Shown here piece by piece: positions 21,137 through 34,210 of a DNA stretch of 38,411 nt. A program made the position numbers and the translations under genes. Every line of letters begins with the position of its first letter. The stretch's first letter is position 1. Source of the DNA: Streptomyces sp. SBT349 (GTDB lineage Bacteria; Actinomycetota; Actinomycetes; Streptomycetales; Streptomycetaceae); contig NZ_LAVK01000024.1 of the NCBI RefSeq assembly GCF_001083795.1, positions 1 through 38,411 of the forward strand, in the 5' to 3' direction. The notes beneath the pieces were generated by a model. It made no database searches and was not told where the DNA came from. It worked only from the letters and a program-made list of their open reading frames with translations.

Positions 21137-21499
21137 ATGGACACCCCGACGTGCCTGCGGGAGGTGGCACACCGTCATCTCTCGCCGAAGGAACGGATGC
21201 TGATCATCCGCGGCAGTCAGCACGGCAGCCTGACGGGGCGACCGGTTCACGCCCTCCTGGAGCGCGGCCTCGTCCGTCCTCACGTCGGCCGGAACAAGGA
21301 GGTCAACCGGCCCGGGGAACGACTGCTGACCGGAGTGCTGGCTTCTAGCGGCCGACGGGGTCGCCTTCGGCCCGGTCGGTCTGCGTGCGCAGCGTCGCGT
21401 GGCCGCCGTGGTGAAGGGGCGTGTCCAGCTTCAGGCGGGCTGCCTCGGTTCCCGTTCGGGCGTCGAAGAGGTGGATCTCGCCGTGACCGCCGCGGGTGA
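21137..21499 (+). CDS. Small hypothetical protein, possible winged-helix
   Basis: A 120-codon frame with ATG 21137 behind GGAAGG. The first 70 residues look genuine: CLREVAHRHLSPKERMLIIR, then HALLERGLVRPHVGRNKEVN and RPGERLLTGVL, a helix-helix-wing rhythm like small winged-helix proteins. After about residue 72 the frame is Arg/Gly-rich because it runs antisense through the end of the beta-propeller-like gene (155-bp overlap), so the natural stop may have been lost. Function unknown. Confidence 0.4.
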   Translation: MDTPTCLREVAHRHLSPKERMLIIRGSQHGSLTGRPVHALLERGLVRPHVGRNKEVNRPGERLLTGVLASSGRRGRLRPGRSACAASRGRRGEGACPASGGLPRFPFGRRRGGSRRDRRG

Positions 21500-22544
21500 C
21501 GGCAACCCAGTCCGTGCCCGGTGACGCTGCCACCGCACGGCGTTGGACGCCCTCCCAGGGGGTGCCGCCGCGGCGGGGCGCGCCGTCCATGGCCGGGAGG
21601 GGGACGCGGTGGGCGGTCCCGCCGTCGGCGTCCAGCAGAACCAGTTCGTCGCCGTCCGGGTGGATACGGGCGAAGGCGGCGTGGTCCTGGGTGAGAGCCA
21701 GCCGGAAAACGAGCCCCGAGCCGAGATCCGCCAGGGTCGTACGATCCGTCTCCACGTCGTGACACCACGCCTGATTCGTCCACTCCGGCCACCGCAGAGG
21801 GTCCGCGTGCCCGCCCCGCAGCGTCGACCACAGCGTCCGCCGCCGCGGGTCGAACCGCAGATACCAACCCCGGGCGGGCGAACCCCACGGGATCGTCGGC
21901 TCCGCGACGAGTGCGTCGCCGTCGCGGCGTGCCCGGTACACCCCTTCGCCGACGGCCGCGAACACCTCGCCGCGATCCGGGGCCTGGGCGTCGCCGTGGC
22001 CGTCGTCCGGCAGTGGGAGACGCGCGTGGGCCGTTGCCGGCGGGCAACCGGGCGGCGCGCCGAGCAGGTCGGCGAACCGGTGGACGTCCAGGGCCCCGGG
22101 CTCCCTGTGCCGCAGCACGACGAGGGGGTCGCCCCCGCCCAGTACGGTCACTCCGGGCTCGCCCACGCGTGTGCGCACCCGGGCCGTGTCTCCCGTGGCG
22201 AGGTCGACGACCGTCAGCAGATCCGACCACGGCCTGTCGTTCCTGCCGAGGCCGGTCGTGACGGCCACCCAGCGGCCGGACGGGTCCACGGCGAGGTGCT
22301 CGGCCGGCGCGGCGACCGGGATCACGGCTTCCACGAGCTCGTGGCCGAACGGGGCGAGCACCAGCAGTTCGCCTCTGCGGTCATCGACGCAGGCCGTCCG
22401 CCCGCCCGGCAGCGCGAGGAACCCGGCGTGCTCGGAGATGTGGCGGCCGGTGAGACGGCCGGCCTCGGTGCCGTCCGGCACGGTCAGCACAAGGACGAGT
22501 CCCCCTACGTGGTCGGAGACGAGCAGCAGTGGATCGGCGGACAT
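21345..22544 (-). CDS. Beta-propeller-like (WD40/YncE-type) protein of the RiPP locus
   Basis: A 399-residue protein made of repeated ~40-residue strand units with the rhythm expected of a propeller: LALPGGRTACVDDRRGELLV, AEHLAVDPSGRWVAVTTG, WYLRFDPRRRTLWSTLRG, HAAFARIHPDGDELVLLDAD and WVAVTRGGHGEIHLFDARTG. There is no signal peptide or lipobox (MSADPLLLVSDHVGGLVLV), so it should be cytoplasmic. It is rich in His and Asp (for example DDGHGDAQAPDRGE). ATG 22544 has GGAGG upstream. It is divergent from the peptide precursor gene with a single Zur-like box between them, so it is probably derepressed under the same condition. The role is unknown; a chaperone, metal-handling or immunity function are all possible. 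Confidence 0.7.
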   Translation of the reverse strand: MSADPLLLVSDHVGGLVLVLTVPDGTEAGRLTGRHISEHAGFLALPGGRTACVDDRRGELLVLAPFGHELVEAVIPVAAPAEHLAVDPSGRWVAVTTGLGRNDRPWSDLLTVVDLATGDTARVRTRVGEPGVTVLGGGDPLVVLRHREPGALDVHRFADLLGAPPGCPPATAHARLPLPDDGHGDAQAPDRGEVFAAVGEGVYRARRDGDALVAEPTIPWGSPARGWYLRFDPRRRTLWSTLRGGHADPLRWPEWTNQAWCHDVETDRTTLADLGSGLVFRLALTQDHAAFARIHPDGDELVLLDADGGTAHRVPLPAMDGAPRRGGTPWEGVQRRAVAASPGTDWVAVTRGGHGEIHLFDARTGTEAARLKLDTPLHHGGHATLRTQTDRAEGDPVGR

Positions 22545-22613
22545 GGGTGCCTCCATCGACGGGCTCCTCGGGGCTGGCCGGTGTGTTACCTGGATCACCT
22601 CCAGGCGGGTAGT

Positions 22614-22634
22614 AAATGATAATCATATTCTTTA
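22614..22634. promoter_or_regulatory. Zur/Fur-family box controlling the RiPP precursor and propeller genes
   Basis: An AT-rich island in GC-rich DNA. The core AATGATAATCATATTC contains the perfect 5-1-5 palindrome ATGAT-A-ATCAT. Aligned with the Streptomyces Zur consensus as I remember it (TCATGAnAATCATTTTCA, then nnA), 14 of 18 defined positions agree, including the central AATCAT. It does not fit the iron-repressor DmdR/IdeR pattern (TTAGGTTAGGCT type). It lies 60 bp before the precursor ATG and 70 bp before the divergent propeller start, placed to repress both when zinc is sufficient. Confidence 0.7.
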
Positions 22635-22693
22635 AGCTCTGCGGTGCGGCGCTCGTTCGACCGCCGTACCTCCCATGCGGATAAGGAGAGTTC

Positions 22694-22816
22694 ATGGACA
22701 ACGAGATGGACAACGAGAAGGTCTTCGCGCCGATCGCCGACCCGGGCCAGCTGGCCCACGACTCGGCCTCGCACTCAAACGCCCTCGTGGAGAACCCGTT
22801 CGAGGACGGCGAGTGA
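22694..22816 (+). CDS. Putative RiPP precursor peptide (metallophore candidate)
   Basis: A 40-residue acidic peptide directly behind AAGGAGAG (22683-22690). The first 12 bases, ATGGACAACGAG, are repeated exactly, giving MDNEMDNE and two possible starts. The leader-like part is KVFAPIADPGQLA; the next segment HDSASHSNA alternates serine with His, Asp or Asn; the tail is LVENPFEDGE. There is no cysteine or threonine, so azole or azoline formation could only use the three serines. The two histidines, serine-derived rings and acidic residues would suit metal binding. A strong hairpin follows, then the modification operon, the usual RiPP layout. It is preceded by a Zur-like box. It resembles no precursor I know. 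Confidence 0.75.
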   Translation: MDNEMDNEKVFAPIADPGQLAHDSASHSNALVENPFEDGE

Positions 22817-22839
22817 CCAAGGGGTAAGCCCCCCTGACC

Positions 22840-22873
22840 GTGGGCCCGCCGCTTCTCTCCCGGGCGGGCCCAC
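22840..22873 (+). terminator. Hairpin separating precursor from modification operon (attenuator)
   Basis: GTGGGCCCGCC and GGCGGGCCCAC make a perfect 11-bp stem around a 12-nt loop, 23 nt after the precursor stop and 37 nt before the next start. Such a partial terminator would keep precursor mRNA in excess over enzyme mRNA and shield its 3' end. Confidence 0.75.
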
Positions 22874-22910
22874 GCCCATCTCCGAAGCCCTACCCGACAG
22901 GAGACCCGAC

Positions 22911-23732
22911 GTGTCCCGCAGCCAACTCGCCCCCGGCGTCGAGGTCGTCGCCGTGCCCGGGCGGGGTCTCGCCGTCCGCACGGCCGACGGCGAGTTCCTC
23001 AGCGCACGGATCGGCGGGTCCGACCAGAACGCGCTGCTGGCGCGGCTCTCCGGCACGGCGACGGGCGAACCGGACGCCGAACTCGACCGCCTCGTCCGGG
23101 CCTTCGATCGCGCCGGCTACTTGTCGGAGCACGCGCGGCGCAGGGAGTGGCCCGCCGGGCGCCGGGACGTCCGGCTGGTGGGCGACCCCGTGCTGACCGG
23201 GCCGCTGGCCGCCTATCTGTGGGCCGAAGGCGCGAAGCCCCGGTCGGTGGAGCCCGACGCGGCGGCCGACGGACACCCCGCCGCCGTGGTCTGGTGCGTC
23301 GATGGCCCCGTGCCCGAAGGACTGTGGGAGACCGCCGACCGGCTGCCCGAGCGCGGGATCGCCTGGCTGCGCTGCCACCGCGAAGGCTGGCAGGCGTACG
23401 TGGAGCCCCTCGCAGCCGCCGCCGGTGACGTCACCTCCTCCCACGTCCGTGCGCGTCGACTCGCCGCCACACCCGCGCACCGCGAGCTGGGCGCCTACTG
23501 GAGCGGCCCTCGTACGTCCGGCGCCCCCATCCGGCTCACCGCCCCGGCTGCCGGGTTGCTCTCCGCGCTGCTCGCCGACGACCTCACCCGGTGGGCCACC
23601 GGCGTTCCCGACACCGGCGGGCTGCCCGCCCGGCGCCGCCTGCGCCGTGTCGACCTGCGCACGCTGACCGTCACCGAGCACCCCGTGCTGCCCGTTCCCG
23701 ATGTCGCCCCGTTGCCGGACAGCGCCCGATGA
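22911..23732 (+). CDS. E1/ocin-ThiF-like leader-peptide-binding partner of YcaO
   Basis: A 273-residue protein that matches the short E1-like partner proteins of TOMM/azoline clusters. The first ~80 residues (LAPGVEVVAVPGRGLAVRTA...LDRLVRAFDRAGYLSE) look like a RiPP recognition element that binds the leader. A truncated ThiF-type Rossmann domain follows (RDVRLVGDPVLTGPLAAYLW, AAVVWCVDGPVPEGLWETAD, GIAWLRCHREGWQAYVEPLA). The paired zinc cysteines (CxxC) common to these proteins are missing: the expected position reads VTSSHVRARRLAATP with Ser176-Ser177. It therefore likely presents the precursor rather than adenylating it. GTG 22911 has AGGAGA upstream; its stop overlaps the hydrolase start (ATGA). 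Confidence 0.75.
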   Translation: MSRSQLAPGVEVVAVPGRGLAVRTADGEFLSARIGGSDQNALLARLSGTATGEPDAELDRLVRAFDRAGYLSEHARRREWPAGRRDVRLVGDPVLTGPLAAYLWAEGAKPRSVEPDAAADGHPAAVVWCVDGPVPEGLWETADRLPERGIAWLRCHREGWQAYVEPLAAAAGDVTSSHVRARRLAATPAHRELGAYWSGPRTSGAPIRLTAPAAGLLSALLADDLTRWATGVPDTGGLPARRRLRRVDLRTLTVTEHPVLPVPDVAPLPDSAR

Positions 23733-25207
23733 CGTTGCTCACCGAGGCCGTCGACGGCCTCGCCACCGACATCCGGCTCCCGGACGGCGACGGTCCCTTC
23801 CCGGCCGTCCTCGTCCGCACTCCCTACGACAGGCGGCGGTACCGCGCCGAGCTGAGCGGGTGGGCTCAGCGCGGTTTCGCAGCACTGGCCCAGGACGTGC
23901 GAGGGCGGCACTCCTCGGCGGGGGCGTGGCACCCTTACCGGAACGAGGCCGCCGACGGAGCGGCAACCGTCCGCTGGATCCGTCGGCAGCCCTGGAGCGA
24001 CGGGCGACTGGTGGCGGCGGGCGCCTCCTACGCCGGGTACTGCGCCCTCGCCCTCGCGCTGGAAGCGCCCGAGGACGCCCGCCCCGACGCCGTCATCGCC
24101 GCCGTGCCCGCACTGGGCACCGCGGAGACGGCTCGCGAGCCCTCGGGCGTGGAACGACTCTCGGCCCGTGCCGGGTGGTGGGCGGCTCACGGCGACCGGC
24201 GGGACTCCGACGAGGAGGCCCTGGCGAAAGCCCTCGCCGCCGACCCCGAGCTGCTCGCCCACCTGCCGGTGAGTGGCCTCCCCGAAAGGCTCGGCCGGAG
24301 CCTGCCCTCCTGGACGGGCCTGTGGCGGCACCGCGAACGCGGGCGGCTCGGCTCGCGGGCGAGGCACGCCGGAAGTCCCCTCCTCGCGGTGGGCGGCCGG
24401 CACGACCCCTTCACCGAGGAGACCTTCGCGCTGTGGCGCTGCTGGGGCGGGCCATCGGCGCGGCTGCTGATGGGGCCCTGGGGGCACGGCCTCGTCGCGG
24501 AGCCCGGTCCTGACGCCGACCCGGCGCACCGGGTGCGCCTCGGCGACCTCTACGCGCGCTGGGCCCACCTCGCCCTGACCGGGGAGCTTCGGAACGGTCA
24601 CCGCGGCGCGGTCGCGCTGGGCGGCAGCCCGCTGTGGGTGCCGGCCGACACGGAGGGCGAGCCGTACAGTCCGGACCTGCTGCTGCTGCACGGAACCTCG
24701 TTCACGGCCGACCCCGAACGCCCGGTGCCGTCCGGTGAGCTGACCGTCCCCACCGGTGGCACGCCCGACCGCTGCCTGCTCGCCACCGCGCCGCTGCCGC
24801 GTCCGCTGGACGTCGTCGGTCCCGCCGAGGTGCGGCTGCGGGCCGCCGCCGACACGCCGTGCTCCGACTGGTTCGCCCGGCTCGCCGCCATCACCCCGGA
24901 CGGCACGGCCGAGCGGCTGGCCGTCGGCGCCGTCCGGCGCGCGGACCCTCCGGGCCGGGCCGCCGAGTTCACCGTGGCGCTCGGCCGGCTCGCGCGCCGG
25001 CTGCGCGCGGGCACCCGGCTCCGCCTGGAGATCGCCGGGCACCACTTCCCGGCCCACGCCCGCAATCCCCACACCGGTGACGACCCGGTCACGGCCACCC
25101 ACCTGCTCGCCTCCCGGCGCGAGGTCGCACCCGGGCGCGTGGCGCTGCGGCTGCCCGTGCTCCGGACCCCCCGCCCCACCGACCCCGTACAGGAGATCCT
25201 GCGATGA
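23729..25207 (+). CDS. CocE/NonD (peptidase S15-type) hydrolase
   Basis: A 492-residue serine hydrolase of the CocE/X-Pro dipeptidyl-peptidase superfamily. The N-terminal alpha/beta domain begins ATDIRLPDGDGPFPAVLVRT with the oxyanion tyrosine in TPYDRR (Tyr33). The nucleophile is Ser100 in GASYAGY, the acid Asp226 in VGGRHDPF and the base His253 in MGPWGHG, so the triad is complete. The C-terminal jelly-roll (about residues 320-490) contains LTGELRNGHRGAVALGGSPL and HHFPAHARNPHTGDDPV. It has no signal peptide. Gene overlaps on both sides (ATGA) tie it to the E1-like and YcaO genes, so it most likely acts on the peptide: leader removal, or hydrolysis of an amide or ester. No other protease is encoded in the cluster. 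Confidence 0.87.
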   Translation: MTLLTEAVDGLATDIRLPDGDGPFPAVLVRTPYDRRRYRAELSGWAQRGFAALAQDVRGRHSSAGAWHPYRNEAADGAATVRWIRRQPWSDGRLVAAGASYAGYCALALALEAPEDARPDAVIAAVPALGTAETAREPSGVERLSARAGWWAAHGDRRDSDEEALAKALAADPELLAHLPVSGLPERLGRSLPSWTGLWRHRERGRLGSRARHAGSPLLAVGGRHDPFTEETFALWRCWGGPSARLLMGPWGHGLVAEPGPDADPAHRVRLGDLYARWAHLALTGELRNGHRGAVALGGSPLWVPADTEGEPYSPDLLLLHGTSFTADPERPVPSGELTVPTGGTPDRCLLATAPLPRPLDVVGPAEVRLRAAADTPCSDWFARLAAITPDGTAERLAVGAVRRADPPGRAAEFTVALGRLARRLRAGTRLRLEIAGHHFPAHARNPHTGDDPVTATHLLASRREVAPGRVALRLPVLRTPRPTDPVQEILR

Positions 25208-26583
25208 CGGCCCTGCCGCTGGAAGCTCTCGTCGACCCCGTCTGCGGCATCGTCCGCAAGGTCAAGCCCGTCGAGCACCCCATGGGCGCACCGCCCCGCT
25301 ACACCGCGCTCACCGCGGAGATCTCCGACGCCCGCAGGCTCGGCCTGTGGCCCGCCGACCGGGTATCACTCGGCACAACGTTCGGTGACCCCGAGGGTGC
25401 CCGGATCGCCGCCATAGCGGAGGGAATCGAGCGGTACTGCGGTAACCGCCTGCCGCCGCCCGGCCACCCGCGCGCGCCGCTGCGAGCCACGGCCGCCGAG
25501 CTGACCGAGAAGGGCCTGCGGCTGTACGGACCGGGGGAGCTGCCGGCCTACGCCGGCTGGCAGTACGGCCGCGAGAAGTTCCCCTACCGTCCCCTGACAC
25601 CGGACACGCCGGGCCTGTGGGCACGCGGCGAGGAGCGGCTGCGTGGCGGGGAGACGGCCGAGGTCTGGGCGCCCGTCGCGCTCACCCACCTCAACTGGCG
25701 CCAGGGCGAGCTGCGTTCGCTGCCCCGTACACACCACCTCAACTACGCCGGGATCGCCACGGGGCAGGGGTTCGACGACGCCGTCGAGCGCGGTCTGCTG
25801 GAGGTCGTCGAGCGCGACGCGCTCGAACTGTGGTGGCACCTGGACGGGCCGGCCCGCGGCATCGACCCGGCCGGTGTACCCGGCCTCTCCGACGACCTGG
25901 CCGGATCCGGGCTCGACGTCCATCTGGTCGAGATGCCTTCGGAGTTCGCCCCCTGCATGGGCGCGCTCGTCCACGACCGCCGACTCGGCCTGCACGCCGC
26001 CGGGTTCGCCTGCCGGTACGATCCGGCCGAGGCCGCCCGCAAGGCCGTGCTGGAGGCCGTCCACACCTGGATCTTCACGCAGGGCCTCATCGATCCCGAC
26101 GGCTGGGTGTTCGAGGCCGTCGAGGCCGGGCTGCTCGCCCGCGGGCTCTACCTGGACCACCGCGAGGACGGACGCTACCTCGACGCGTGCGGTGAGCACT
26201 TCTCCCGGGTGCGGGACCTGGGCGCCCACGTACAGGTGTGGCTGGACGAGCGGATGGCGCCCGAGGCCCGGCGGTTCACCGAGCCCGCACGGGGAGTCGT
26301 CCCCATCGACGCGGTTGAGCCCGGCAGCCGGGAGCGACTGGAGCGCGCTCTTCACGAGGGCGGTCACCGCGTCATGACGTTCGACCTCACCACCGAGGAC
26401 GTGGCCGAGACACCGCTGCGCGTGGCGCGCGTACTCGTCTCCGGTCTGATCCCCAACGCCCCCGCCGCCTTCGGCTACTTCGGCTGTCCGCGCCTCGCCG
26501 AGGCCGCCGTGGGCCGGGGTTGGCGCACGACCGGTCCGAGCGCACCGGAGGACTTCACGCTCGCTCCTCCGCCCCACATGTGA
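25204..26583 (+). CDS. YcaO-domain protein (peptide-backbone cyclodehydratase-like)
   Basis: A 459-residue YcaO enzyme, which uses ATP to phosphorylate a peptide amide and so form azolines, amidines or thioamides. ATP-site motifs are visible: A69xxxE73GIE76R77 (SxxxExxER with Ser replaced by Ala), LLE200VVE203R204D205 and the third motif VLE284AVH287, in which the usual glutamine of ExxQ is histidine. The C-terminus ends LAPPPHM, a short proline-rich tail like the PxPxP ends of azoline-forming YcaO proteins. With an E1-like partner and a SagB dehydrogenase next to it, heterocycle formation is the best guess; the precursor offers serines only. No TfuA is present, which argues against thioamidation. 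ATG overlaps the hydrolase stop. Confidence 0.92.
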   Translation: MTALPLEALVDPVCGIVRKVKPVEHPMGAPPRYTALTAEISDARRLGLWPADRVSLGTTFGDPEGARIAAIAEGIERYCGNRLPPPGHPRAPLRATAAELTEKGLRLYGPGELPAYAGWQYGREKFPYRPLTPDTPGLWARGEERLRGGETAEVWAPVALTHLNWRQGELRSLPRTHHLNYAGIATGQGFDDAVERGLLEVVERDALELWWHLDGPARGIDPAGVPGLSDDLAGSGLDVHLVEMPSEFAPCMGALVHDRRLGLHAAGFACRYDPAEAARKAVLEAVHTWIFTQGLIDPDGWVFEAVEAGLLARGLYLDHREDGRYLDACGEHFSRVRDLGAHVQVWLDERMAPEARRFTEPARGVVPIDAVEPGSRERLERALHEGGHRVMTFDLTTEDVAETPLRVARVLVSGLIPNAPAAFGYFGCPRLAEAAVGRGWRTTGPSAPEDFTLAPPPHM

Positions 26584-26593
26584 GGGCCGCCCC

Positions 26594-27676
26594 GTGGATC
26601 TCGTCACCGCCCTCGCCCGCGCCCGCTCCGCCGAGGAGCCCGGCCCGGACACGCCCGCCGCGCCCCCCGTCCCCGACTGGCCGGGGGACGCACGCTGCCT
26701 GTCGCGGGCCGGCCCCGGAGAGCTGGACCTCTGGTGGCTGCTCCGCCTCTCGCTGGCCGCCCAGGACGGTGCCGGACGGCTGCGGCCGGTCCCGTCGGCG
26801 GGCGGCCTCCACCCGGTGGACGCCCAGCTCGTCGTGGGCGCCGACTGCCCGCTGCCGTCCGGACGCTACGGCTACGACCCGCTGCGCCACCGCGTGCACC
26901 TTCTGGGGCCCGCGCCCGACGACGCGCCGCCCGGAGCGGCCGTCGAGCTCTCCGTCACGCCGCGGCGCACGGTCTCCCACTACGGCCACCGTGCCTGGCC
27001 CCTGATGCTGCTCGACACCGGACACGCCGCCGCGGCGCTGCGTCTCGCGGCCCGCGCGCTCGGCGCCGGCCCGCCCACACTCGGCCTCGACGGGCGTGCC
27101 GAACGCCCGCTCGCCTCACTCCACTTCACGCCGCCCGGAGGTCCGCGCCGGGTCGCGGACGCGCCCGCTCCCCGCGATCTGCTGGCCCGTCGCAGCGCCC
27201 GGCCGCCGCTGAGGGGCGTCCCTTCACGGGACGTCCTGCGAACGGTGCTCGCCACTCTCGCCGACGCGAGCGCCGGTGAGGTCGCGTGGTGCGCCGCCGT
27301 TGGCGAACCGCGGCCCGAACTCGTCGAGTTGTCCCCCGACGGCTCCCTGCGGCGGCTCGCCTCCGGGGAGGCCAGGCCGACACTCGCCGCCTGGGCCGCG
27401 GGCCAGGGATGGATAGCGGACGCGGGCGCCGTCCTGCTGGGGTACGGCTGCCCGACGGACGCCGACGCTCCACGGATCCGCCGCGCCCATCTGCGGGCCG
27501 GCTTCGCCGTGGGGCTGGCCCACGTCGCGGCCGGCCGCCTTGGGGTGGCAAGCCGCCCCGTCGGCTCCTGGCAGCAGGCGGATCTGGGCGCCGCGCTCGG
27601 CGCGGCACCGGGCAGGGACTGGATCGTCCACGGCCTGGCCCTCGGCACCACCCACCCCAAGGAGGGGATCCCGTGA
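26594..27676 (+). CDS. SagB-type FMN dehydrogenase (nitroreductase family)
   Basis: A 360-residue flavoprotein of the SagB/ThcOx group, which oxidises azolines to azoles. The FMN-binding signature R64PVPSAGGLHP74 is clear. The sequence looks like two nitroreductase-like halves, the second starting near DLLARRSARPPLRGVPSRDV. The second half includes AGFAVGLAHVAAGRLGV near the end, the usual helix before the C-terminus. GTG 26594 lies 10 nt after the YcaO stop. Its stop overlaps the first ABC gene in GTGA. Its presence implies that at least one heterocycle is aromatised, although the catalytic Lys-Tyr pair known from some azoline oxidases could not be located with confidence. Confidence 0.85.
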   Translation: MDLVTALARARSAEEPGPDTPAAPPVPDWPGDARCLSRAGPGELDLWWLLRLSLAAQDGAGRLRPVPSAGGLHPVDAQLVVGADCPLPSGRYGYDPLRHRVHLLGPAPDDAPPGAAVELSVTPRRTVSHYGHRAWPLMLLDTGHAAAALRLAARALGAGPPTLGLDGRAERPLASLHFTPPGGPRRVADAPAPRDLLARRSARPPLRGVPSRDVLRTVLATLADASAGEVAWCAAVGEPRPELVELSPDGSLRRLASGEARPTLAAWAAGQGWIADAGAVLLGYGCPTDADAPRIRRAHLRAGFAVGLAHVAAGRLGVASRPVGSWQQADLGAALGAAPGRDWIVHGLALGTTHPKEGIP

Positions 27677-29439
27677 TCGTCCACCCCGAGTTGCGCCGCG
27701 CCGCACGGCACGCACGGCGCACCCTGCTCGCGGCCACCGTCCTTCAGGGGGCCGTCACCCTGACCCACGTCGCCCAGGCTGGGCTGCTGGCTCTCGCGCT
27801 CGCCGACGTGGCCCGGGGCGACACGGACCAACTCCCGCCGCTCCTCGGAGCGGTGCTGGCCGTGGTCGCCATCCGCGCGGGGCTGAGCTGCTGGCAGCGG
27901 CGCACGGCCACCCGCGCCGGGACAGGGGTCAGGGTGCGCCTGAGAGACGAACTCGTCGCCCACCTCGGACGGCTCGGGCCCGCCCACCTGACCTCCCCCG
28001 GCCTTCGGCCGGGGGGACCCCCCGCGCGTGTCGGGGCCGTCCGGACGACCCTGGTCGACGGAGTGGAGGGCGTCGACGCGTACGTCTCCCGCTACCTGCC
28101 CCAACTCCTCGTCACCCTCGCCGTGCCGCCCCTTCTGCTCGCCGCCGTGGCCGCGGTCGAGCCCCGCGCCCTCCTCTGTCTCGTCCCCGCCCTTCTGCTC
28201 GCCCTGGTCGGGCCGCGCGCCTGGGACCGGCTCCTCGCCCGTCGCGGCAAGGAGCACTGGGACACCTACGAGGGGCTGGGCGCCGACTACCTGGAGGCCC
28301 TCCAGGGCATGCCCGTGCTGCGTGCTGCGGGCGCCGTGGAGCGCACCCGCGAGCGGCTGGAGGAGCGTTCGGCGGCGCTGCACCGGGCGACCGTCGCCAA
28401 GCTCCGCGTCTCCCTCGTCGACACCGGGCTGACCGACCTGGCGATCCAGGGCGGCACCGCGGCCGCCGCGCTGCTGGCCTGCTGGTCGGCCGCCACCGGA
28501 TCCACCACGGCGACCGGCACCTATATGGTGCTGCTCCTGGCCGCCGAGTGCTTTCGGCCCGTGCGCGACCTGGCCCGCGAGTGGCACGCCGGGTACCTGG
28601 GCGTCTCGGCCGCGGACGGGCTCGCGGCGCTGCGCACCGCCGAACCCACGGTCCCCGACGCGGGAACGGCGCGGGCGTACTGGCCGGAGCCGCCCCAGGT
28701 GCGTTTCGAGGACGTGACGTTCAGCTACGACGGCGGGGAGGAGTTCGCCGTCCGCGCCGTCACCTTCACGGCCGAGGCAGGGCGTACCACCGCGATCGTC
28801 GGCGCCTCGGGCGCCGGCAAATCCACCCTGATCGCTCTGCTCCTGCGCCATCGCGATCCGGGGCGGGGCCGGATCACGGTCGACGGCCGCGACGTGGCCG
28901 AGTACACCCTGGATTCGCTGCGGCAGGGCATCGCCGTCGTCTCCCAGGAGACCTACCTCTTCCACGGCACCATCGCCGACAACCTGCGCCTGGCCCGGCC
29001 GGCGGCCACGGACGACGAGCTGGTCCGCGCCGCGCGCGCCGCCGGCGTCCACGACGAGATCGCCGTCCTCCCCGACGGCTACGCCACCGTCCTCGGCGAA
29101 CGCGGTTCCACCCTCTCCGGCGGTCAGCGGCAGCGGCTCGCCCTCGCACGTGCTCTGCTGGCCGACGCCCCGGTGCTCGTCCTCGACGAGGCCACCAGCT
29201 CGGTCGACGAACGCCGCGAGGCGGACATCATCCGCGAGCTGGTGGCCGCCGCGGGGGGCCGGACCGTCCTGGTCGTCGCCCACCGGCTCGCCGCGGTCCG
29301 GCACGCCGACCGGATCGTGGTACTCGACGGCGGACGGTTGGACGCCGTCGGCGAGCACATCCCCCTCGTCGAGGCCGGCGGCGTGTACGCGGAACTCGTC
29401 AACGCCGGCCGTACGCACGAGGAAGGGGTCCCCGCATGA
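27673..29439 (+). CDS. ABC transporter, fused permease/ATPase (CydD/YbtP-like half)
   Basis: A 588-residue half-transporter of type IV exporter fold. The N-terminal ~330 residues hold about six membrane helices (ATVLQGAVTLTHVAQAGLLA, PQLLVTLAVPPLLLAAVAAV and others). The ATPase domain has Walker A GASGAGKST (Lys383), Q-loop VVSQETYLF, signature LSGGQ (481-485), Walker B VLVLDEATS (Glu506) and the switch His in VAHRLA, so it is catalytically complete. It overlaps the next half-transporter by ATGA, indicating a heterodimer. Similar pairs export peptides or cysteine (CydDC) or import siderophores (YbtPQ, IrtAB). Residues ~107-116 (SPGLRPGGPP) are encoded by a 9-bp-stem palindrome and appear to be an in-frame insertion. 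Confidence 0.88.
   Translation: MIVHPELRRAARHARRTLLAATVLQGAVTLTHVAQAGLLALALADVARGDTDQLPPLLGAVLAVVAIRAGLSCWQRRTATRAGTGVRVRLRDELVAHLGRLGPAHLTSPGLRPGGPPARVGAVRTTLVDGVEGVDAYVSRYLPQLLVTLAVPPLLLAAVAAVEPRALLCLVPALLLALVGPRAWDRLLARRGKEHWDTYEGLGADYLEALQGMPVLRAAGAVERTRERLEERSAALHRATVAKLRVSLVDTGLTDLAIQGGTAAAALLACWSAATGSTTATGTYMVLLLAAECFRPVRDLAREWHAGYLGVSAADGLAALRTAEPTVPDAGTARAYWPEPPQVRFEDVTFSYDGGEEFAVRAVTFTAEAGRTTAIVGASGAGKSTLIALLLRHRDPGRGRITVDGRDVAEYTLDSLRQGIAVVSQETYLFHGTIADNLRLARPAATDDELVRAARAAGVHDEIAVLPDGYATVLGERGSTLSGGQRQRLALARALLADAPVLVLDEATSSVDERREADIIRELVAAAGGRTVLVVAHRLAAVRHADRIVVLDGGRLDAVGEHIPLVEAGGVYAELVNAGRTHEEGVPA
27995..28015. repeat. Palindromic repeat inserted in-frame in the first ABC gene
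   Basis: CCCCCGGCC, TTC, GGCCGGGGG: a perfect 9-bp hairpin followed by GACCCCCC. Such CGGCCTTCGGCCG-type palindromes recur in Streptomyces genomes, to my knowledge as dispersed REP-like units. Here it adds about ten residues (SPGLRPGGPP) to a loop after the second membrane helix without breaking the frame. Confidence 0.5.
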
Positions 29440-31208
29440 GCGGCACCGTCCAAGACGCCATACCGGACCGCGGCACGGTCGATGCTCCCGAACCCCAGCG
29501 CGGGTCACTGCGCGCGCTGCTGCCCGCGCTCGCCGGGCACCGGGCCATGATGGCCCGCACCTGCGCCGCCGCCGTCGTCGAACAGGGCTCACTGGTCACC
29601 TTGCTGACCCTGGCCTCCCATACCGTCGGAACCGCGGTCACCACGAACCGCGCCCCCTCGGCCGGAGCGATCACCGCTCTCGTCGCCCTCGTCCTCGTCC
29701 GCGCCCTGATGACCTGGCGCGAGATGGACCTCTCGCACGATCTGGCCTACCGGGTGCTGGCCGAGCTGCGGGTGCGGGTCTTCGACGGGCTCGCCCGAAG
29801 CGCGCCCGCCCGCGTGGGCGGCAGGCGCAGCGGAGAACTGGCCGCCACCGCGATGGCCGACGTGGAGGCCCTGGAGTTCTTCTACGCCCACACCACAGCC
29901 CAATTCCTCGCATCCGGATTGGTGTTCGGCGGCGGCGCCGCGACCCTGGCCGCGGTGGAGCCGTGGTTGCTACTGGCGGTGCTGCCGGTCGCCGCCCTGC
30001 TCGCCGCGGCCCCCTTCGCCGACGCGCGGGGAGGTGCGGTGCGTGGAGCGCGCACCAGGGCGGCCGCCGCGACGCTGTCGGCCGACACCGTGGACACCGT
30101 CGACGGGCTGCGCGAGCTGCTCGCCTTCGGCGGACTCGCCACGCGGCGCCGCCGACTCGCGGAGCAGGGCCGGAAAGTGGGCGAGGCACAGCGGGCCGAG
30201 GCTTCCCGGGAGGCCTCGGCCGCCGCCGTCCGCGACGTGCTCATCGTGTCCGCGATCCTCGGTGCGGTGGTCGCCGCGGCGCAGTCCGCGACCTCGGGCA
30301 GGCTCCACGGTGCGTGGGTGCCGGCGTCGATGGCGCTGGCCCTGACGATGCTGGGACCGGTCGCCGAGTCGGCCAAGGCGCTGAGCCGGACGATGGGTCT
30401 GCGCGCCGCGGCCGCCCGGGTCGACGCGGCCGTGAAGGCCCCCGCGCTCGCCCCGCCGCCCGCATCCCCACGCCCGCTGCCGCCGGGCCTGCTGGGCGTC
30501 CGGTTGCACAGCGTGAGCTTCGACTACGGGGGCCCGCCGGTGCTGGACGGCATCGACCTGACGATCCCGGCTGGACGGACGCTCGCCCTGGTCGGTGCCT
30601 CAGGGGCGGGCAAGTCCACCTGCGCCCACCTGCTGGCCCGTTTCTGGGATCCGTCCGAGGGGGCCGTCCACCTGCTGCCCGACGGCGGTGAGCCCGTCGA
30701 TCTCCGCGACCTGTCCGACGCCCAACTCCGCGGCGCCATCGCCGTGGTGGGCCAGGACGCCCCCCTCTTCCACGGGACCCTCGCCGACAACCTGCGCCTC
30801 GGCGCACCGGATGCGGACGACCGCCTCCTGGCCGAAACGGCGAAACTGTGCGGCGTCGACGGGATCGCCTCCCTGGACACCCTCGTCGGGGAGCGCGGTT
30901 CCACCGTCTCCGGCGGCCAGCGCGCCCGCATCGCCCTCGCCCGTGCCCTGGTGGCCGAACCCCGGGTCCTGGTGCTGGACGAGACCACCGCTCACCTGGA
31001 CAACGCCGGCGACGCCCGGCTCGGCAGCGCGCTCGGCGGGGGAGACCGCACCACGATCGTCATCGCCCACCGCCGCTCCACCATCCGCCGCGCCGACCGC
31101 ATCGCCGTCCTCGAAGCCGGCCGCATCGCGGAAGAGGGCACCTGGGAGGAACTCACCGCCCGCTCCGACAGCGCGCTGAACCGCGTACTGGCCGCCACCT
31201 CGTCCTGA
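29436..31208 (+). CDS. ABC transporter, fused permease/ATPase (CydC/YbtQ-like half)
   Basis: A 590-residue partner of the preceding half-transporter. About six membrane helices lie in residues 40-320 (AAAVVEQGSLVTLLTLASHT, AGAITALVALVLVRALMTW, AQFLASGLVFGGGAATLAAV). The ATPase has Walker A GASGAGKST (Lys393), Q-loop VVGQDAPLF, signature VSGGQ and Walker B VLVLDETTA (Glu516), with His in IAHRRS, so both subunits can hydrolyse ATP. It is the last gene of the plus-strand operon and ends 37 bp from the convergent importer genes. In this context it could either secrete the modified peptide or bring the metal-peptide complex across the membrane. Confidence 0.88.
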   Translation: MSGTVQDAIPDRGTVDAPEPQRGSLRALLPALAGHRAMMARTCAAAVVEQGSLVTLLTLASHTVGTAVTTNRAPSAGAITALVALVLVRALMTWREMDLSHDLAYRVLAELRVRVFDGLARSAPARVGGRRSGELAATAMADVEALEFFYAHTTAQFLASGLVFGGGAATLAAVEPWLLLAVLPVAALLAAAPFADARGGAVRGARTRAAAATLSADTVDTVDGLRELLAFGGLATRRRRLAEQGRKVGEAQRAEASREASAAAVRDVLIVSAILGAVVAAAQSATSGRLHGAWVPASMALALTMLGPVAESAKALSRTMGLRAAAARVDAAVKAPALAPPPASPRPLPPGLLGVRLHSVSFDYGGPPVLDGIDLTIPAGRTLALVGASGAGKSTCAHLLARFWDPSEGAVHLLPDGGEPVDLRDLSDAQLRGAIAVVGQDAPLFHGTLADNLRLGAPDADDRLLAETAKLCGVDGIASLDTLVGERGSTVSGGQRARIALARALVAEPRVLVLDETTAHLDNAGDARLGSALGGGDRTTIVIAHRRSTIRRADRIAVLEAGRIAEEGTWEELTARSDSALNRVLAATSS

Positions 31209-31245
31209 CACGCGGGCCGTCCACGTCGCCGTGCGGCACCGGGCG

Positions 31246-32265
31246 TCAGAACGCCCCGGGGTACAGCGCCGCGGCGATGTCCGCGACCGCGTCGACGTTG
31301 CCGAGCGTGCCGGGGTAGACGTCCGAGGACGAGATGGGGATGAGGCGGTCGTTGCGCACCGCGTCGAGGTCGGGGAAGGTGCTCTCCAGGTACTCGCGGG
31401 TGGCCCGCTCGTGCTCGGCGCCGCTGACCGCGAAGACGAGGGCCTCCGGGTCCCGTTCGGCGAGCACCTCGGGATTGATCTGGGCGGCGAAGAAGTCGGC
31501 GAACGCGGCGTCGCCGGGACCGAAGACGTTCTCGCCGCCGGCCCGCCCGATGATGTCGTACTCGATGCCGGCGCCGATCGCGGAGAGCGTGCTGCCCTCG
31601 ACGTAGACCTGCGCGACCGTGACGGGCTCCTGCCCCGAGACGCCCGCGGCGACGTCGTCCAGCGCCGCCCGGGCCTCCTCGGCGAGTCCGGCAGCGGCCT
31701 CGACTGCCCCGAGGGCGCGGCCGAGGGTGTCCAGGTCGGTGAAGAGATCGTCGACCGTGCCGGTCATGCGGCGATCCTCGCAACCGCCGGTGGCGATATA
31801 GGCGGCCACGCCCGCCTCGTCGAGTTGCTCGATGCTGGCGAAGCCCTGCTCGGCGGTGAACTCGTAGGCGGTGGGCGCGAACACGAAGTCGGGCGCGGCC
31901 TCGAGCAGCACCTCTCGCGTCGGCGGGGCGTCCTCGCTGAGCACGGGGATGTCCTCGGCCTCGGCCCGCAGGTCCTCGGGCAGTGGTGCCGTGGCCGTCT
32001 GCGCCTGACCCACCATCCGGTCGCCCAGCCCCAGGCGCAGCAGCAGCTCCGTCTGGGACGGGCTCAGGCCCACGATTGCCTCCGGGGGGCCGGAGAGGAC
32101 GATGTCGCGCCCGCAGTTGGCGAGAACGGTCGGCTGCCGGCCGTCGGCGCCCTCGCCGTCCGCCTCCGGCTCGGTGACACCCGAGCCACAGGCGGTGAGG
32201 GTGAGGAGGCCGACGGCGGCCAGGACCGTTCCGGCGGCGGACCGGGAAGGAAGGGGGCGGGTCAT
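31246..32265 (-). CDS. Metal-chelate (siderophore/cobalamin-type) ABC binding lipoprotein
   Basis: A 339-residue extracellular binding protein of the FecB/BtuF class (helical-backbone, class III), the type that binds metal chelates rather than free zinc (ZnuA). The lipobox LTAC lies near residue 26 behind a hydrophobic stretch. Family strands: AIVGLSPSQTELLLRLGLGD, VLLEAAPDFVFAPTAYEF, LAERDPEALVFAVSGAEHER and a closing DAVADIAAALYPGAF. It lacks the His-rich loop of zinc-specific proteins. Last gene of the importer operon, coupled to the ATPase by ATGA, with AAGGAG before the ATG. Some actinobacterial relatives have been called putative F420-0 transporters; nothing here points to F420. Confidence 0.87.
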   Translation of the reverse strand: MTRPLPSRSAAGTVLAAVGLLTLTACGSGVTEPEADGEGADGRQPTVLANCGRDIVLSGPPEAIVGLSPSQTELLLRLGLGDRMVGQAQTATAPLPEDLRAEAEDIPVLSEDAPPTREVLLEAAPDFVFAPTAYEFTAEQGFASIEQLDEAGVAAYIATGGCEDRRMTGTVDDLFTDLDTLGRALGAVEAAAGLAEEARAALDDVAAGVSGQEPVTVAQVYVEGSTLSAIGAGIEYDIIGRAGGENVFGPGDAAFADFFAAQINPEVLAERDPEALVFAVSGAEHERATREYLESTFPDLDAVRNDRLIPISSSDVYPGTLGNVDAVADIAAALYPGAF

Positions 32266-33083
32266 GATGCGTGCTCCTTGGCTGGGCGCTCGGGCGCCGG
32301 GACGTGCGGTGAAGGGGGTGGCTGGGAGGAGAAGGCGATCAGGGGCCGCCCGGTCGCCGGGTGGCTGAGCAGGTGCGCCTGGACGCCGAAGACCTCGCCG
32401 ATCAGCTCGGGCGTCAGCACGTCCGCCGGGGGACCGTGGGCGACGATCCGCCCCGCCCGCATGACGGCGACGACGTCGCAGTGGGCCGCCGCCAGGTTCA
32501 GGTCGTGCAGCGCGGCGAGCGTGGTCAGCCCGAGCTCGCCGATGATGCGCATGAGTTCGAGCTGGAAGGAGACGTCCAGGTGGTTGGTCGGCTCGTCCAG
32601 CACCAGTACCTGGCTCTCCTGCACCAGGGCACGCGCCAGCAGCACCCGCTGCTTCTCGCCGCCCGACAATCCGGCGAAGGGCCGTCCCGCCAGCTCGGCG
32701 GCGCCGACACGGGCGAGGGCGCGGTCGGCGAGTTCGAGGTCGCGAGGAGAATCGCCCCCGAAACCGCGGTGGTGGGGCAGGCGGCCGAGGAGCACGGCGT
32801 CGAGTACGTCGAGGTCGAAGTCGGCGGTGGTCTCCTGGGTCATGACGGCGACCTGCCGCGCCACGGTCCGCGGCGGCAGCTTCCACACGTCCTTCCCGTC
32901 GATGCCGACCGTGCCGGTCTCGGGCCTGGTCACCCGGTAGAGGCTGCGCAGCAGCGTGGACTTGCCGCTGCCGTTCGGGCCGACGAGACCGGCGATCCGG
33001 CCCGGTGCCACGCCGAACGTCGCGCCATGCACGATGCGGGTGCCGCCCAGCGCGACGACGACATCCGTGAAGTCGACCCTCAT
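32262..33083 (-). CDS. ABC transporter ATP-binding protein, FecE/BtuD-like
   Basis: A 273-residue ATPase of the chelate importer. Walker A VGPNGSGKST, Q-loop VMTQETTAD, signature LSGGEKQR (GGE rather than GGQ, normal for this family), Walker B VLVLDEPTNHLD and the switch LHDLN are all in place. The C-terminal ~25 residues are Pro-rich and non-conserved. ATG 33083 overlaps the permease stop and its own stop overlaps the start of the binding protein, so the three importer genes form one translationally coupled operon in the order permease, ATPase, binding protein. Confidence 0.92.
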   Translation of the reverse strand: MRVDFTDVVVALGGTRIVHGATFGVAPGRIAGLVGPNGSGKSTLLRSLYRVTRPETGTVGIDGKDVWKLPPRTVARQVAVMTQETTADFDLDVLDAVLLGRLPHHRGFGGDSPRDLELADRALARVGAAELAGRPFAGLSGGEKQRVLLARALVQESQVLVLDEPTNHLDVSFQLELMRIIGELGLTTLAALHDLNLAAAHCDVVAVMRAGRIVAHGPPADVLTPELIGEVFGVQAHLLSHPATGRPLIAFSSQPPPSPHVPAPERPAKEHAS

Positions 33084-34186
33084 CGCGACATCCCCGCCCT
33101 GGCCGCGCGCCCGTGGCGTATCAACCAGAGGAAGCAGGGGGCCCCCACCACGGCGGTGACGATGCCGATGGGTATCTCGGTGGGTTCGGCGACGGTCCGC
33201 GCGAGCACGTCGGCGGCCATCAGGAACAGAGCGCCACCCAGGACGGAGACCGAGAGCATGCGGCGGTGGTCGGCGCCGACGAGGATCCGCGCGGCGTGCG
33301 GGATGACAAGACCGACGAAGCCGATGCCGCCGCTGACCGCCACGACCGACCCGGTCAGCAGGGACGCGGCGATCACCAACTGCCCGCGCAGCCGGTTGAC
33401 GTTGACGCCCAGGGCGGTGGCGTTCTCGTCGCCCACCAGCAGAGCGTTGAGGGCACGGGCGTTGGCCAGGGCGAAGAGCGTGACGGCGGCGAGCGCGGCG
33501 GCCGGCACCGCGAGCTGTTCCATGGTGGCCGCGGAGACGCTGCCCAGCAGGAAGAAGAGCACGCTGAACACGTTCTGTGCCTCGGTGGTCAGTGTCAGGT
33601 AGCTCGTCACCGCGCTGAGGAGCGAGCCGAGGGCCACTCCGGCGAGGATCATGCGCGTCGGGGCCAGCACCCCGTGCTGACGGGCCAGCAGGTAGACGGC
33701 GGCGGTCGCGCCGAGCGCGCCGAGGAACGCCGCGCCGCTGAGCGGGAGCCCGCCCACGGCGGCCGAGCCGAGCGTGATCACGGCGACCGCGCCGACGCTG
33801 GCCCCCGCCGAGACCCCCAGCACGTAGGGCTCGGCCAGCGGGTTGCGCACCGCGGCCTGCATCAGCGCCCCGGCCAGCGCGAGACCGGCCCCGGCCAGAC
33901 CGGCCAGCAGTGTGCGCGGCAGCCGGAACTGCCACACCGTCTGGTCCTGGAGCCGGGTGATCGAACCGTCCCTCATCCAGGGGGCGTCGGGGACGAGGTG
34001 GCCGATGACGACGCGCACCGCGTCAGCCGCCCCGACGTCAGCCGGGCCGGTGGCGACGGAGACAACGACGGTGGCGAGGATGGTGAGCACGAGCACGAGG
34101 TGCACGCCCACCAGCGCCCCGGCGGGCCGGCGTCGCCTCCCCTGTCTGGCGGCCTGTCTCGTGGTGGACAACGACGCGCCTCCCAT
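33080..34186 (-). CDS. FecCD-family ABC permease (metal-chelate importer)
   Basis: A 368-residue permease with about ten membrane helices. Diagnostic FecCD blocks: LPRTLLAGLAGAGLALAGAL, then MQAAVRNPLAEPYVLGVSAG, GASVGAVAVITLGSA, and FVGLVIPHAARILVGADHRR near the ATPase-coupling loop. The homodimer would form the channel. It is the first gene of the importer operon; ATG 34186 is 3 bp from an AT-rich Zur/Fur-like box. Together with the peptide cluster facing it, this points to uptake of a metal complex. Confidence 0.92.
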   Translation of the reverse strand: MGGASLSTTRQAARQGRRRRPAGALVGVHLVLVLTILATVVVSVATGPADVGAADAVRVVIGHLVPDAPWMRDGSITRLQDQTVWQFRLPRTLLAGLAGAGLALAGALMQAAVRNPLAEPYVLGVSAGASVGAVAVITLGSAAVGGLPLSGAAFLGALGATAAVYLLARQHGVLAPTRMILAGVALGSLLSAVTSYLTLTTEAQNVFSVLFFLLGSVSAATMEQLAVPAAALAAVTLFALANARALNALLVGDENATALGVNVNRLRGQLVIAASLLTGSVVAVSGGIGFVGLVIPHAARILVGADHRRMLSVSVLGGALFLMAADVLARTVAEPTEIPIGIVTAVVGAPCFLWLIRHGRAARAGMSR

Positions 34187-34189
34187 CCT

Positions 34190-34210
34190 GATTGAAAACC
34201 GTTATCGTAA
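34190..34210 (-). promoter_or_regulatory. Second Zur/Fur-like box, importer promoter
   Basis: GATTGAAAACCGTTATCGTAA stands immediately upstream of the permease ATG. Read as a Fur-family 7-1-7 site, TGAAAAC-C-GTTATCG pairs at 5 of 7 arm positions; 11 of 18 positions of the remembered Zur consensus agree, fewer than for the box at 22614. This AT-rich run stands out from the surrounding DNA. Confidence 0.5.

Follow-up and report, generated by a model that had tools for sequence, protein, structure and literature searches.

The window, a stretch of 38,411 nucleotides of Streptomyces sp. SBT349 DNA, contains a RiPP gene cluster in the order amiA-B-C-D-E-T1-T2 that, judged from its sequence, is of the streptamidine (ami) type. 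This placement compares layout and motif with the published description of the cluster of Streptomyces albidoflavus J1074 (MIBiG BGC0002115; PMC8442711), and AmiD with that of L010, a cluster of equal layout, to which it is 92% identical. A standalone AmiD-type YcaO enzyme is found together with a precursor, AmiB, AmiC, AmiE, two ABC transporters and an importer. Downstream of amiA, the forward strand encodes: amiB (22911-23732), an E1-like, leader-binding partner assigned weakly (TIGR03882, 21.6 bits, below the cut-off of 36.9) that is 49-86% identical in relatives and matches them in position; amiC (23729-25207), a CocE/NonD-type (S15) hydrolase scoring above its family cut-off; amiD (25204-26583), a YcaO enzyme of streptamidine type; amiE (26594-27676), a SagB-like flavin dehydrogenase (TIGR03605, 49.9 bits, below the cut-off of 78.4; PF00881, 29.2 bits); and, by profile matches, the ABC half-transporters amiT1 (CydD/MsbA-like, 27673-29439) and amiT2 (29436-31208). 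An earlier, sequence-only reading had named the Ser/His peptide gene, the YcaO and CocE proteins, the E1-like and SagB-type partners and a facing FecBCD-type importer, all of which stand, the two partners with family scores below cut-off. Its fused ABC pair was a misreading: amiT1 and amiT2 share 4 nt, read in different frames, and the amiT2 frame simply stays open 5' of its start. Assignment of amiD to the SagD-type azole-forming YcaO family (TIGR03604) was rejected at 193.6 bits, below the cut-off of 219.25. No Rfam family reached its gathering score across the window, a scan of 22500-22920 found no sigma-70-type promoter or terminator, and no zinc-panel gene other than ami lies inside the window.

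The precursor gene amiA (22694-22816, forward strand), identified as an open reading frame and by alignment with relatives, has 40 codons rich in Ser and His (MDNEMDNEKVFAPIADPGQLAHDSASHSNALVENPFEDGE); its second ATG, at 22706, is the start that agrees with most relatives. The predicted core, HDSASH, aligns with HLSATH of streptamidine. By analogy with the published ami product, it would carry an N-terminal six-membered amidine, for which hand computation predicts C25H34N10O10, with [M+H]+ at about 635.25. Ser24 and Ala30-Leu31-Val32 are identical in all 82 precursors aligned, which places them with motif A (ALV, core Ser3). The core residue His27 is likewise invariant, His22 occurs in 80 of the 82, and the segment SNALVENPF is identical throughout.

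The importer occupies 31246-34186 of the reverse strand and is the putative carrier of the ami product. It consists of: a FecB/BtuF-type substrate-binding protein (31246-32265; PF01497, 55.6 bits), whose nearest solved chain is the periplasmic binding protein 4mlz (E 7.9e-17); an ATPase (32262-33083); and a FecCD-type permease (33080-34186), the latter two assigned by profile matches. The permease shares 61-71% identity with the permeases linked to ami in L213-L217, versus at most 49% with the other FecCD loci compared in three genomes (matches covering at least 70% of the query). An F420-0 ABC transporter was rejected, as TIGR03868/69/73 scored 118, 304.7 and 298.5 bits against cut-offs of 392.4, 437.35 and 372.4. 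A chelate-type importer match is present in all 72 relatives with a propeller-amiA region; in 69 of them a permease match lies between the propeller gene and amiA, a place from which it is absent in the window. The window departs from the standard streptamidine layout: its importer has three genes, encoded on the opposite strand at the cluster's 3' end. What is probably a scar of F4, the ATPase of the standard importer, remains at 22572-22598 (forward strand). Here the frame GWPVCYLDH resembles the F4 tail GGWPVCYPDHPL, which was found in 12 of 12 standard loci compared, with shorter remnants in L010, L013 and L015; none was seen in L213-L217. A regulatory role for this GTTACC-GGATCAC block is less likely: in standard loci it forms part of a coding sequence, and it was not seen in L213-L217. 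Importer type has been exchanged between loci while the boxes described below were kept.

Divergent from amiA, and sharing its box, stands a conserved gene for a 399-residue beta-propeller protein (21345-22544, reverse strand), which the earlier reading had overlooked and which probably corresponds to amiX in the streptamidine paper. The protein matches no Pfam or NCBIfam family, and inspection by eye revealed no signal peptide. It has the fold of AztD, a zinc metallochaperone (6cmk, 6n01, 6ck1) that ranks among the closest known systems, although a shared fold shows no function. Identification as AztD by sequence was rejected: no family matched at E 0.001, NF038015 included, BLASTP was unconvincing and hhalign gave a probability of 5.5. 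The single match in a PDB sequence search (E 1.1) was taken as chance.

Both outer promoters carry Fur-family-like boxes, as had been claimed. The published S. coelicolor Zur box reads tGaNNatSatNNtCa (PMC5472717). Counted by eye, its 11 specified positions are matched at 10 by the 15-bp core of the amiA box, TGATAATCATATTCT (22617-22631), and at 8 by the importer box, TGAAAACCGTTATCG (34193-34207). The full amiA box (22614-22634) agrees at 17 of 21 positions with a longer Zur consensus. When an independent Zur matrix was run over the 38-kb window, the two top sites were the amiA box (22.5 bits; match 22613-22631) and the importer box (12.4 bits; match 34189-34207), followed by a site at 8.0. 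Among 200 column-permuted matrices, none reached the amiA score and four reached that of the importer box, so that the latter is weak by itself; its equivalents in the sister loci L010, L013 and L015 score 14.5, 17.8 and 19.2 bits, all three at 14 or above. The genome has a zur gene, located after znuCB, whose product matches S. coelicolor chain 3mwm, which we take to be ScZur, at E 5.8e-73. A genome pattern search allowing up to three mismatches gave 30 forward matches, versus two for the control; of seven such sites inspected besides ami, three lie at znuA, L31 and a SufS-like/methyltransferase pair, and four away from zinc genes. The genome's remaining YcaO loci (L001, L002, L004, L005) have no Zur site above 6 bits within about 1.5 kb on either side.

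Judged by their promoters, Zur-type control of ami clusters is strongly supported far beyond this window. Motif discovery without a given consensus, applied to 28 znuA, 27 L31 and 72 ami promoters, returned one common palindrome, TGAAAATGA-T--CAT. The Zur matrix was built from znuA and L31 promoters alone; among the 27 L31 promoters used, one or more lack a good site. The loci G000, G005 and G027 were excluded from training. Of 225 relatives, 80 were retained by the scan; 8 of these have no propeller match and 6 no amiA match, most or all of these from contig ends. At 14 bits or more, sites were found in 72 of 72 propeller promoters and 5' of amiA in 73 of 74 loci, the last scoring 13.7; the background was 108 of 5758 other scanned windows of the same loci, a figure that includes the amiA-side boxes. 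Relatedness among the 80 loci, almost all of which come from Streptomyces, means that these counts do not represent independent events. The sample from outside the genus comprised 20 of the 28 genomes with a match, and the six loci without a located precursor are absent from the count that follows. In these distant clusters, a site scoring 11 bits or more lies no farther than 250 bases from 13 of the 14 precursors that were located, whereas 40 of 1497 other windows have one. For L232, the search for the precursor covered only the surroundings of a site, and the count without this locus is 12 of 13. L217 has a box before the importer only and none before the precursor. This search of other genomes for boxes beside peptide, YcaO and importer, and the Zur-type control it bears on, had both been put forward in the sequence-only reading, and the independent matrix strongly supports the latter.

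The same motif marks zinc-related genes elsewhere. Allowing up to two mismatches in three genomes, the pattern gave 13 forward matches and none for a reversed control. Its 18 sites on both strands fall at ami (6), znuA (5, that of G037 assigned by eye), AztB (1), a SufS-like/methyltransferase pair (1), a NikA-like gene (1) and elsewhere in G037 (4). Another 44 strong sites occur in the 80 loci; tallied by hand, 18 of them adjoin L31/L28 ribosomal genes, 7 adjoin COG0523 GTPases, 2 adjoin L32 (one assigned by analogy) and 3 adjoin an importer of the window type.

The window resembles the J1074 cluster in its gene set, conserved ALV motif, HDSASH/HLSATH core and linked FecBCD(E)-type importer, and so the gene set is not the undescribed one that had been supposed. 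In the accessible text of PMC8442711, streptamidine-type clusters are reported from more than 230 species, with their role stated to be unknown. There, production requires AmiB, AmiC, AmiD, AmiE and the importer; AmiC is proposed to cleave off the leader; the product bears an N-terminal six-membered amidine; and importer deletion abolished every ami pathway compound. Production needs the dehydrogenase, yet the hexapeptide shows no oxidation. Metal import was already proposed for the cluster in that account, and its main text makes no mention of Zur control.

Taken together, Zur-like boxes at the peptide gene and the importer, and in nearly all relatives, make it likely that streptamidine-type peptides help the cell to gather scarce zinc. 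The evidence leans modestly towards a specific form of this proposal, in which the ami cluster is repressed by Zur and switched on under zinc starvation, and the modified peptide is a zincophore that is exported, binds zinc and is taken up again. The part read from sequence comprises the ami gene set, the boxes, their conservation in the family, zur in the genome and zinc-starvation genes adjoining some relatives. Zur would bind the ami boxes, and zinc starvation would lead to derepression. AmiB, AmiC, AmiD and AmiE would make the peptide, with AmiC cutting the leader as in the published cluster, and AmiT1/T2 would export it. Zinc would then be held by the two core histidines, perhaps with a conserved Asp/Glu, and the FecBCD-type importer is predicted to take the loaded peptide back. 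Inside the cell, the AztD-fold propeller could act as acceptor or chaperone in zinc hand-over. Peptide modification and the importer link, both part of the original claim of a secreted, re-imported zincophore, fit the characterised family; the zincophore step is plausible but has published negative data against it, since LC-MS assays of the purified hexapeptide showed binding to none of seven metals (Fe, Co, Cu, Mg, Mn, Ni, Zn), according to the published account (PMC8442711). That account also describes a negative CAS assay and wild-type growth of an amiD mutant under metal starvation. A Zur box before nearly every precursor examined points to zinc starvation as a specific condition in which to look for the genuine product and what it does; it may also account for the blank results of the earlier hexapeptide tests.

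A bolder extension, which we consider tentative and unlikely as a whole, would make the entire streptamidine superfamily, motifs A and B, Zur-governed ribosomal zincophores across Actinomycetes. The hexapeptide would then be what is left of a spent zincophore, originally longer and oxidised, once it has been cut after uptake, with the propeller taking zinc from the imported complex. This would explain the need for the dehydrogenase, the effect of importer deletion, the invariant SNALVENPF and the hexapeptide's lack of metal binding. Motif-B cores lack the His pair, which counts against a zincophore.

If the zincophore step is true, it would provide a ribosomal route to zinc scavenging, of which no description was found in the open-access literature (subscription papers and most preprints being outside this scope). 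From what the sources give, coelibactin and ethylenediamine-disuccinate resemble ami in being under Zur, with a zinc-starvation switch expected (PMC6103462, PMC5472717), and the YcaO/metallophore papers PMC13174530 and PMC12710340, in their accessible parts, do not concern the streptamidine family. The ami scaffold is a YcaO-modified ribosomal peptide, whereas coelibactin, as described, is not ribosomal. Nor is ethylenediamine-disuccinate a ribosomal peptide. Methanobactins and bufferins are metal-binding ribosomal peptides, as proposed for ami; they are copper-binding, copper-linked and made by MNIO enzymes, whereas the ami family is YcaO-dependent, Zur-boxed and amidine-forming.

The alternative that survives best, though we hold it unlikely, is that Zur controls a signal or toxin made under zinc scarcity, the importer recovering the peptide or what remains of it. 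Streptamidine's lack of metal binding and of a metal phenotype is in line with this, as is the authors' suggestion of signalling or development, and the wholly identical SNALVENPF looks more like a recognition tag than a ligand. However, the published tests found no antibacterial or antifungal activity (PMC8442711), every relative with a propeller-amiA region has a chelate-type importer match, the box was kept when importer type was swapped, and the divergent propeller gene has a zinc-chaperone fold.

Also weighed against the zincophore reading is a metallophore for iron, cobalt, nickel or copper, its box read by another Fur-family repressor, which appears improbable. In its favour, most FecBCD importers transport iron chelates or cobalamin. 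The ami importers are moreover called iron transporters in the accessible text of PMC8442711. Against this, independent motif searches gave ami the same motif as the promoters of znuA and of zinc-free ribosomal proteins. Among the 30 loci scored from 45 FecCD matches in three genomes, sites above 12 bits fell at ami importers, at AztB and, in one case, 1.3 kb from L271; IdeR-like boxes (14-17 of 19 positions of an IdeR consensus) occurred in 7. An iron box at ami importers was rejected, the three ami importer loci matching that consensus at 10, 11 and 11 of 19.

That the boxes arise by chance in AT-rich sequence or belong to neighbouring genes, leaving the clusters without a zinc link, is very improbable: permuted matrices do equal the importer box alone, but this is opposed by the promoter counts in Streptomyces and beyond, by footprint conservation (across 21 chosen loci, the non-coding gap upstream of amiA has the box as its main conserved block) and by zinc-regulon genes in 24 of the 80 loci within the stretch taken. 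In G027, ami is flanked by the zinc genes AztB/AztD and by a COG0523 GTPase, L31B, L28 and S14.

The window, contig 166 of an 8.06-Mb genome, carries a streptamidine-type (ami) gene cluster. The precursor gene amiA (22694-22816, + strand) is followed on the same strand by amiB, amiC, amiD, amiE, amiT1 and amiT2, in this order and ending at 31208. A conserved beta-propeller gene (21345-22544, - strand) diverges from amiA, and genes for a FecB-type binding protein, an ATPase and a FecCD permease (31246-34186, - strand) face the ami genes. The sequence-only reading had named an E1-like partner, a YcaO, a SagB-type oxidase, a CocE hydrolase and an importer; this gene set was found, but the family matches of AmiB and AmiE are weak in a family profile search, and the supposed fused ABC pair is two separate genes, amiT1 and amiT2, overlapping by 4 nt. 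The set is already described: Russell and colleagues published it as the streptamidine family, with the genes amiF1-F4, amiA, amiB, amiC, amiD, amiE, amiT1 and amiT2 (PMC8442711). Among named clusters, the nearest belong to Streptomyces; that of Streptomyces sp. 8K308 has an AmiD 92% identical to the window's (profile scan of genome contigs).

The window precursor aligns with that of streptamidine, in which the core HLSATH becomes a hexapeptide bearing a six-membered amidine (PMC8442711). Here, the core is HDSASH, followed by SNALVENPF. An alignment of the precursors from 74 named loci, 7 distant loci and the window, 82 in all, shows no variation at Ser24, Ala25 and His27 or in SNALVENPF; His22 is conserved in 80 of them. 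The same paper reports 237 precursors, the majority in two motif classes with ALV common to both. At the start of amiA, a repeated ATGGACAACGAG (22694-22717) creates two in-frame start codons, the second of which most relatives match.

The regulation of these genes was approached through 225 relatives found by a contig scan with an AmiD alignment; among the best 80 of the 225, the propeller gene was matched in 72 and amiA in 74. Motif discovery with no consensus supplied recovered an identical palindrome separately from 28 znuA, 27 L31 and 72 ami propeller promoters, and the Streptomyces coelicolor Zur ChIP motif agrees with it (PMC5472717). A Zur matrix was then built from znuA and L31 promoters alone, excluding genomes G000 (the window's own), G005 and G027; the 27 L31 promoters include at least one with no good site (minimum -4.5 bits). 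Under this matrix, all 72 propeller promoters reach at least 14 bits, as do the upstream regions of 73 of 74 amiA genes, the remaining one scoring 13.7. Among other 250-base windows of the same loci, 108 of 5758 pass, a count that includes amiA-proximal second boxes. In the window, the box shared by amiA and the propeller gene (22614-22634) ranks first at 22.5 bits and the importer box (34193-34207) second at 12.4, the next site scoring 8.0. Boxes at both outer promoters, as first proposed, are thus the top two sites, the importer one weak on its own (of 200 permuted matrices, 4 equalled its score). At the equivalent place, the three sister loci that share this importer, L010, L013 and L015, score 14.5, 17.8 and 19.2 bits.

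The motif was also compared with controls. Allowing up to two mismatches in three genomes, TGAWAATCRTTTTCA gave 13 forward matches versus 0 for the reversed control. Both strands together hold 18 places: six ami promoters, five znuA (that of genome G037 assigned by eye), one AztB, one SufS-like/methyltransferase pair, one before a NikA-like protein and four elsewhere in G037, three of them inspected. With up to three mismatches, the window's genome has 30 forward matches versus 2 for the control; of seven places inspected besides ami, four lie away from zinc genes, and the other three are at znuA, at L31 and at the SufS-like/methyltransferase pair. The zur gene itself follows znuCB in this genome. 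Of 45 FecCD matches, 30 loci were scored. Sites exceeding 12 bits were seen at ami importers and AztB, and in one case at L271, a locus on contig C112 of the window's genome, where a Zur-like site of 15.8 bits precedes a further FecCD permease by 1.3 kb; this permease carries an IdeR-like box as well.

The boxes extend beyond close relatives. AmiD matches occur in 33 of 394 genomes of the class, 28 outside the genus; 20 of these 28 loci were fetched (AmiD about 34-64% identical). A precursor was found in 14, and in 13 of these the 250 bases upstream contain a site scoring 11 bits or more under a slightly smoothed matrix (12 of 13 without L232, whose precursor was looked for only near a site), against 40 of 1497 other windows from the 20 loci. 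At the exception, L217, the sole site is on the importer side. The boxes span both motif classes, since the distant precursors include motif-B types adjoining two YcaO genes; several carry repeated NALVHNPF-like units. Taken together, these sequence comparisons make Zur control of the streptamidine family very probable.

The importer differs in position among the relatives. A FecCD permease match lies between the propeller gene and amiA in 69 of 72 relatives holding this region, with an ATPase match too in 68. In the window, as in the three sister loci, the three-gene importer stands at the opposite end of the cluster instead. The window still has 27 bases (22572-22598) between propeller gene and amiA that read GWPVCYLDH and correspond to the end of the standard F4 ATPase; in all 12 standard loci displayed, this end is GGWPVCYPDHPL, and shorter F4 remnants persist in the sister loci. 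The window permease shares 61-71% identity with ami-linked permeases of the distant loci L213-L217 and at most 49% with other FecCD loci compared (matches covering at least 70% of the query). Most likely, one importer replaced another with a Zur box retained before each unit, which argues that uptake is part of the function.

Some clusters also adjoin zinc genes. The sequence retrieved for 24 of the 80 relatives, some of them short contigs, contains at least one of AztB, AztD, COG0523 GTPase, L31B, L28, S14 and ZnuA, with L059 counted solely by a 35% COG0523 match preceded by a strong Zur site; as the loci are related, these are not 24 events. None of this panel was found in the window. In G027, the ami genes separate AztB and AztD from a COG0523 GTPase, L31B, L28 and S14. 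The S. coelicolor Zur regulon includes ribosomal paralogues and COG0523 (PMC6103462), and the remaining neighbours are named zinc transport families in NCBIfam. Another 44 strong sites across the 80 loci stand by L31/L28 (18), COG0523 GTPases (7), L32 (2, L067 by analogy with L071), window-type importers (3), the SufS-like/methyltransferase pair (4), a 275-aa methyltransferase-like gene (5) and a NikA-like protein (1), with 4 left over; most GTPase, L32 and 275-aa assignments were by eye.

What is new here is a testable regulatory link for a known biosynthetic family. Russell and colleagues put forward metal import as the role, looked for binding to seven metals and found none, observed no phenotype when an amiD mutant was starved of metals, and stated that the role is still unknown; their main text does not mention Zur (PMC8442711). 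If Zur represses ami when zinc is sufficient, zinc starvation would lead to peptide synthesis and export by AmiT1/T2. The peptide would bind zinc via its two histidines and re-enter through the importer, and zinc would be passed on inside, perhaps by the propeller protein. The gene set, boxes, conservation and zinc neighbours in some relatives come from sequence; the need of the genes for production and the amidine product come from PMC8442711. We lean slightly towards a zincophore function. The negative binding data concern the hexapeptide, and we speculate that this is the remnant of a longer active form. Such a form would fit two published observations: the dehydrogenase is needed although the product is not oxidised, and importer deletion abolishes all compounds (PMC8442711).

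Other genes share these neighbourhoods. An operon of diaminopimelate-decarboxylase-like, SbnA-like, SufS-like and methyltransferase genes adjoins ami at 10 of the 80 loci (L010, L017, L021, L030, L032, L036, L038, L041, L045 and L047), 9 of which include the decarboxylase-like gene, and at least part of the operon recurs on another contig of the window's genome (L121, C74, 1146-3919). In several, a Zur-like site precedes the methyltransferase gene, and the operon is possibly a second zinc-regulated metabolite pathway. The 275-aa methyltransferase-like gene, recognized by eye, lies behind the propeller gene with its own strong Zur site (L012 2161, L016 2077, L017 1976, L022 1744, L026 1915). 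Zur-like sites also precede NikA-like substrate-binding proteins at L147 (G005 C1:4160485) and L068 (17911), candidates for metal-chelate import.
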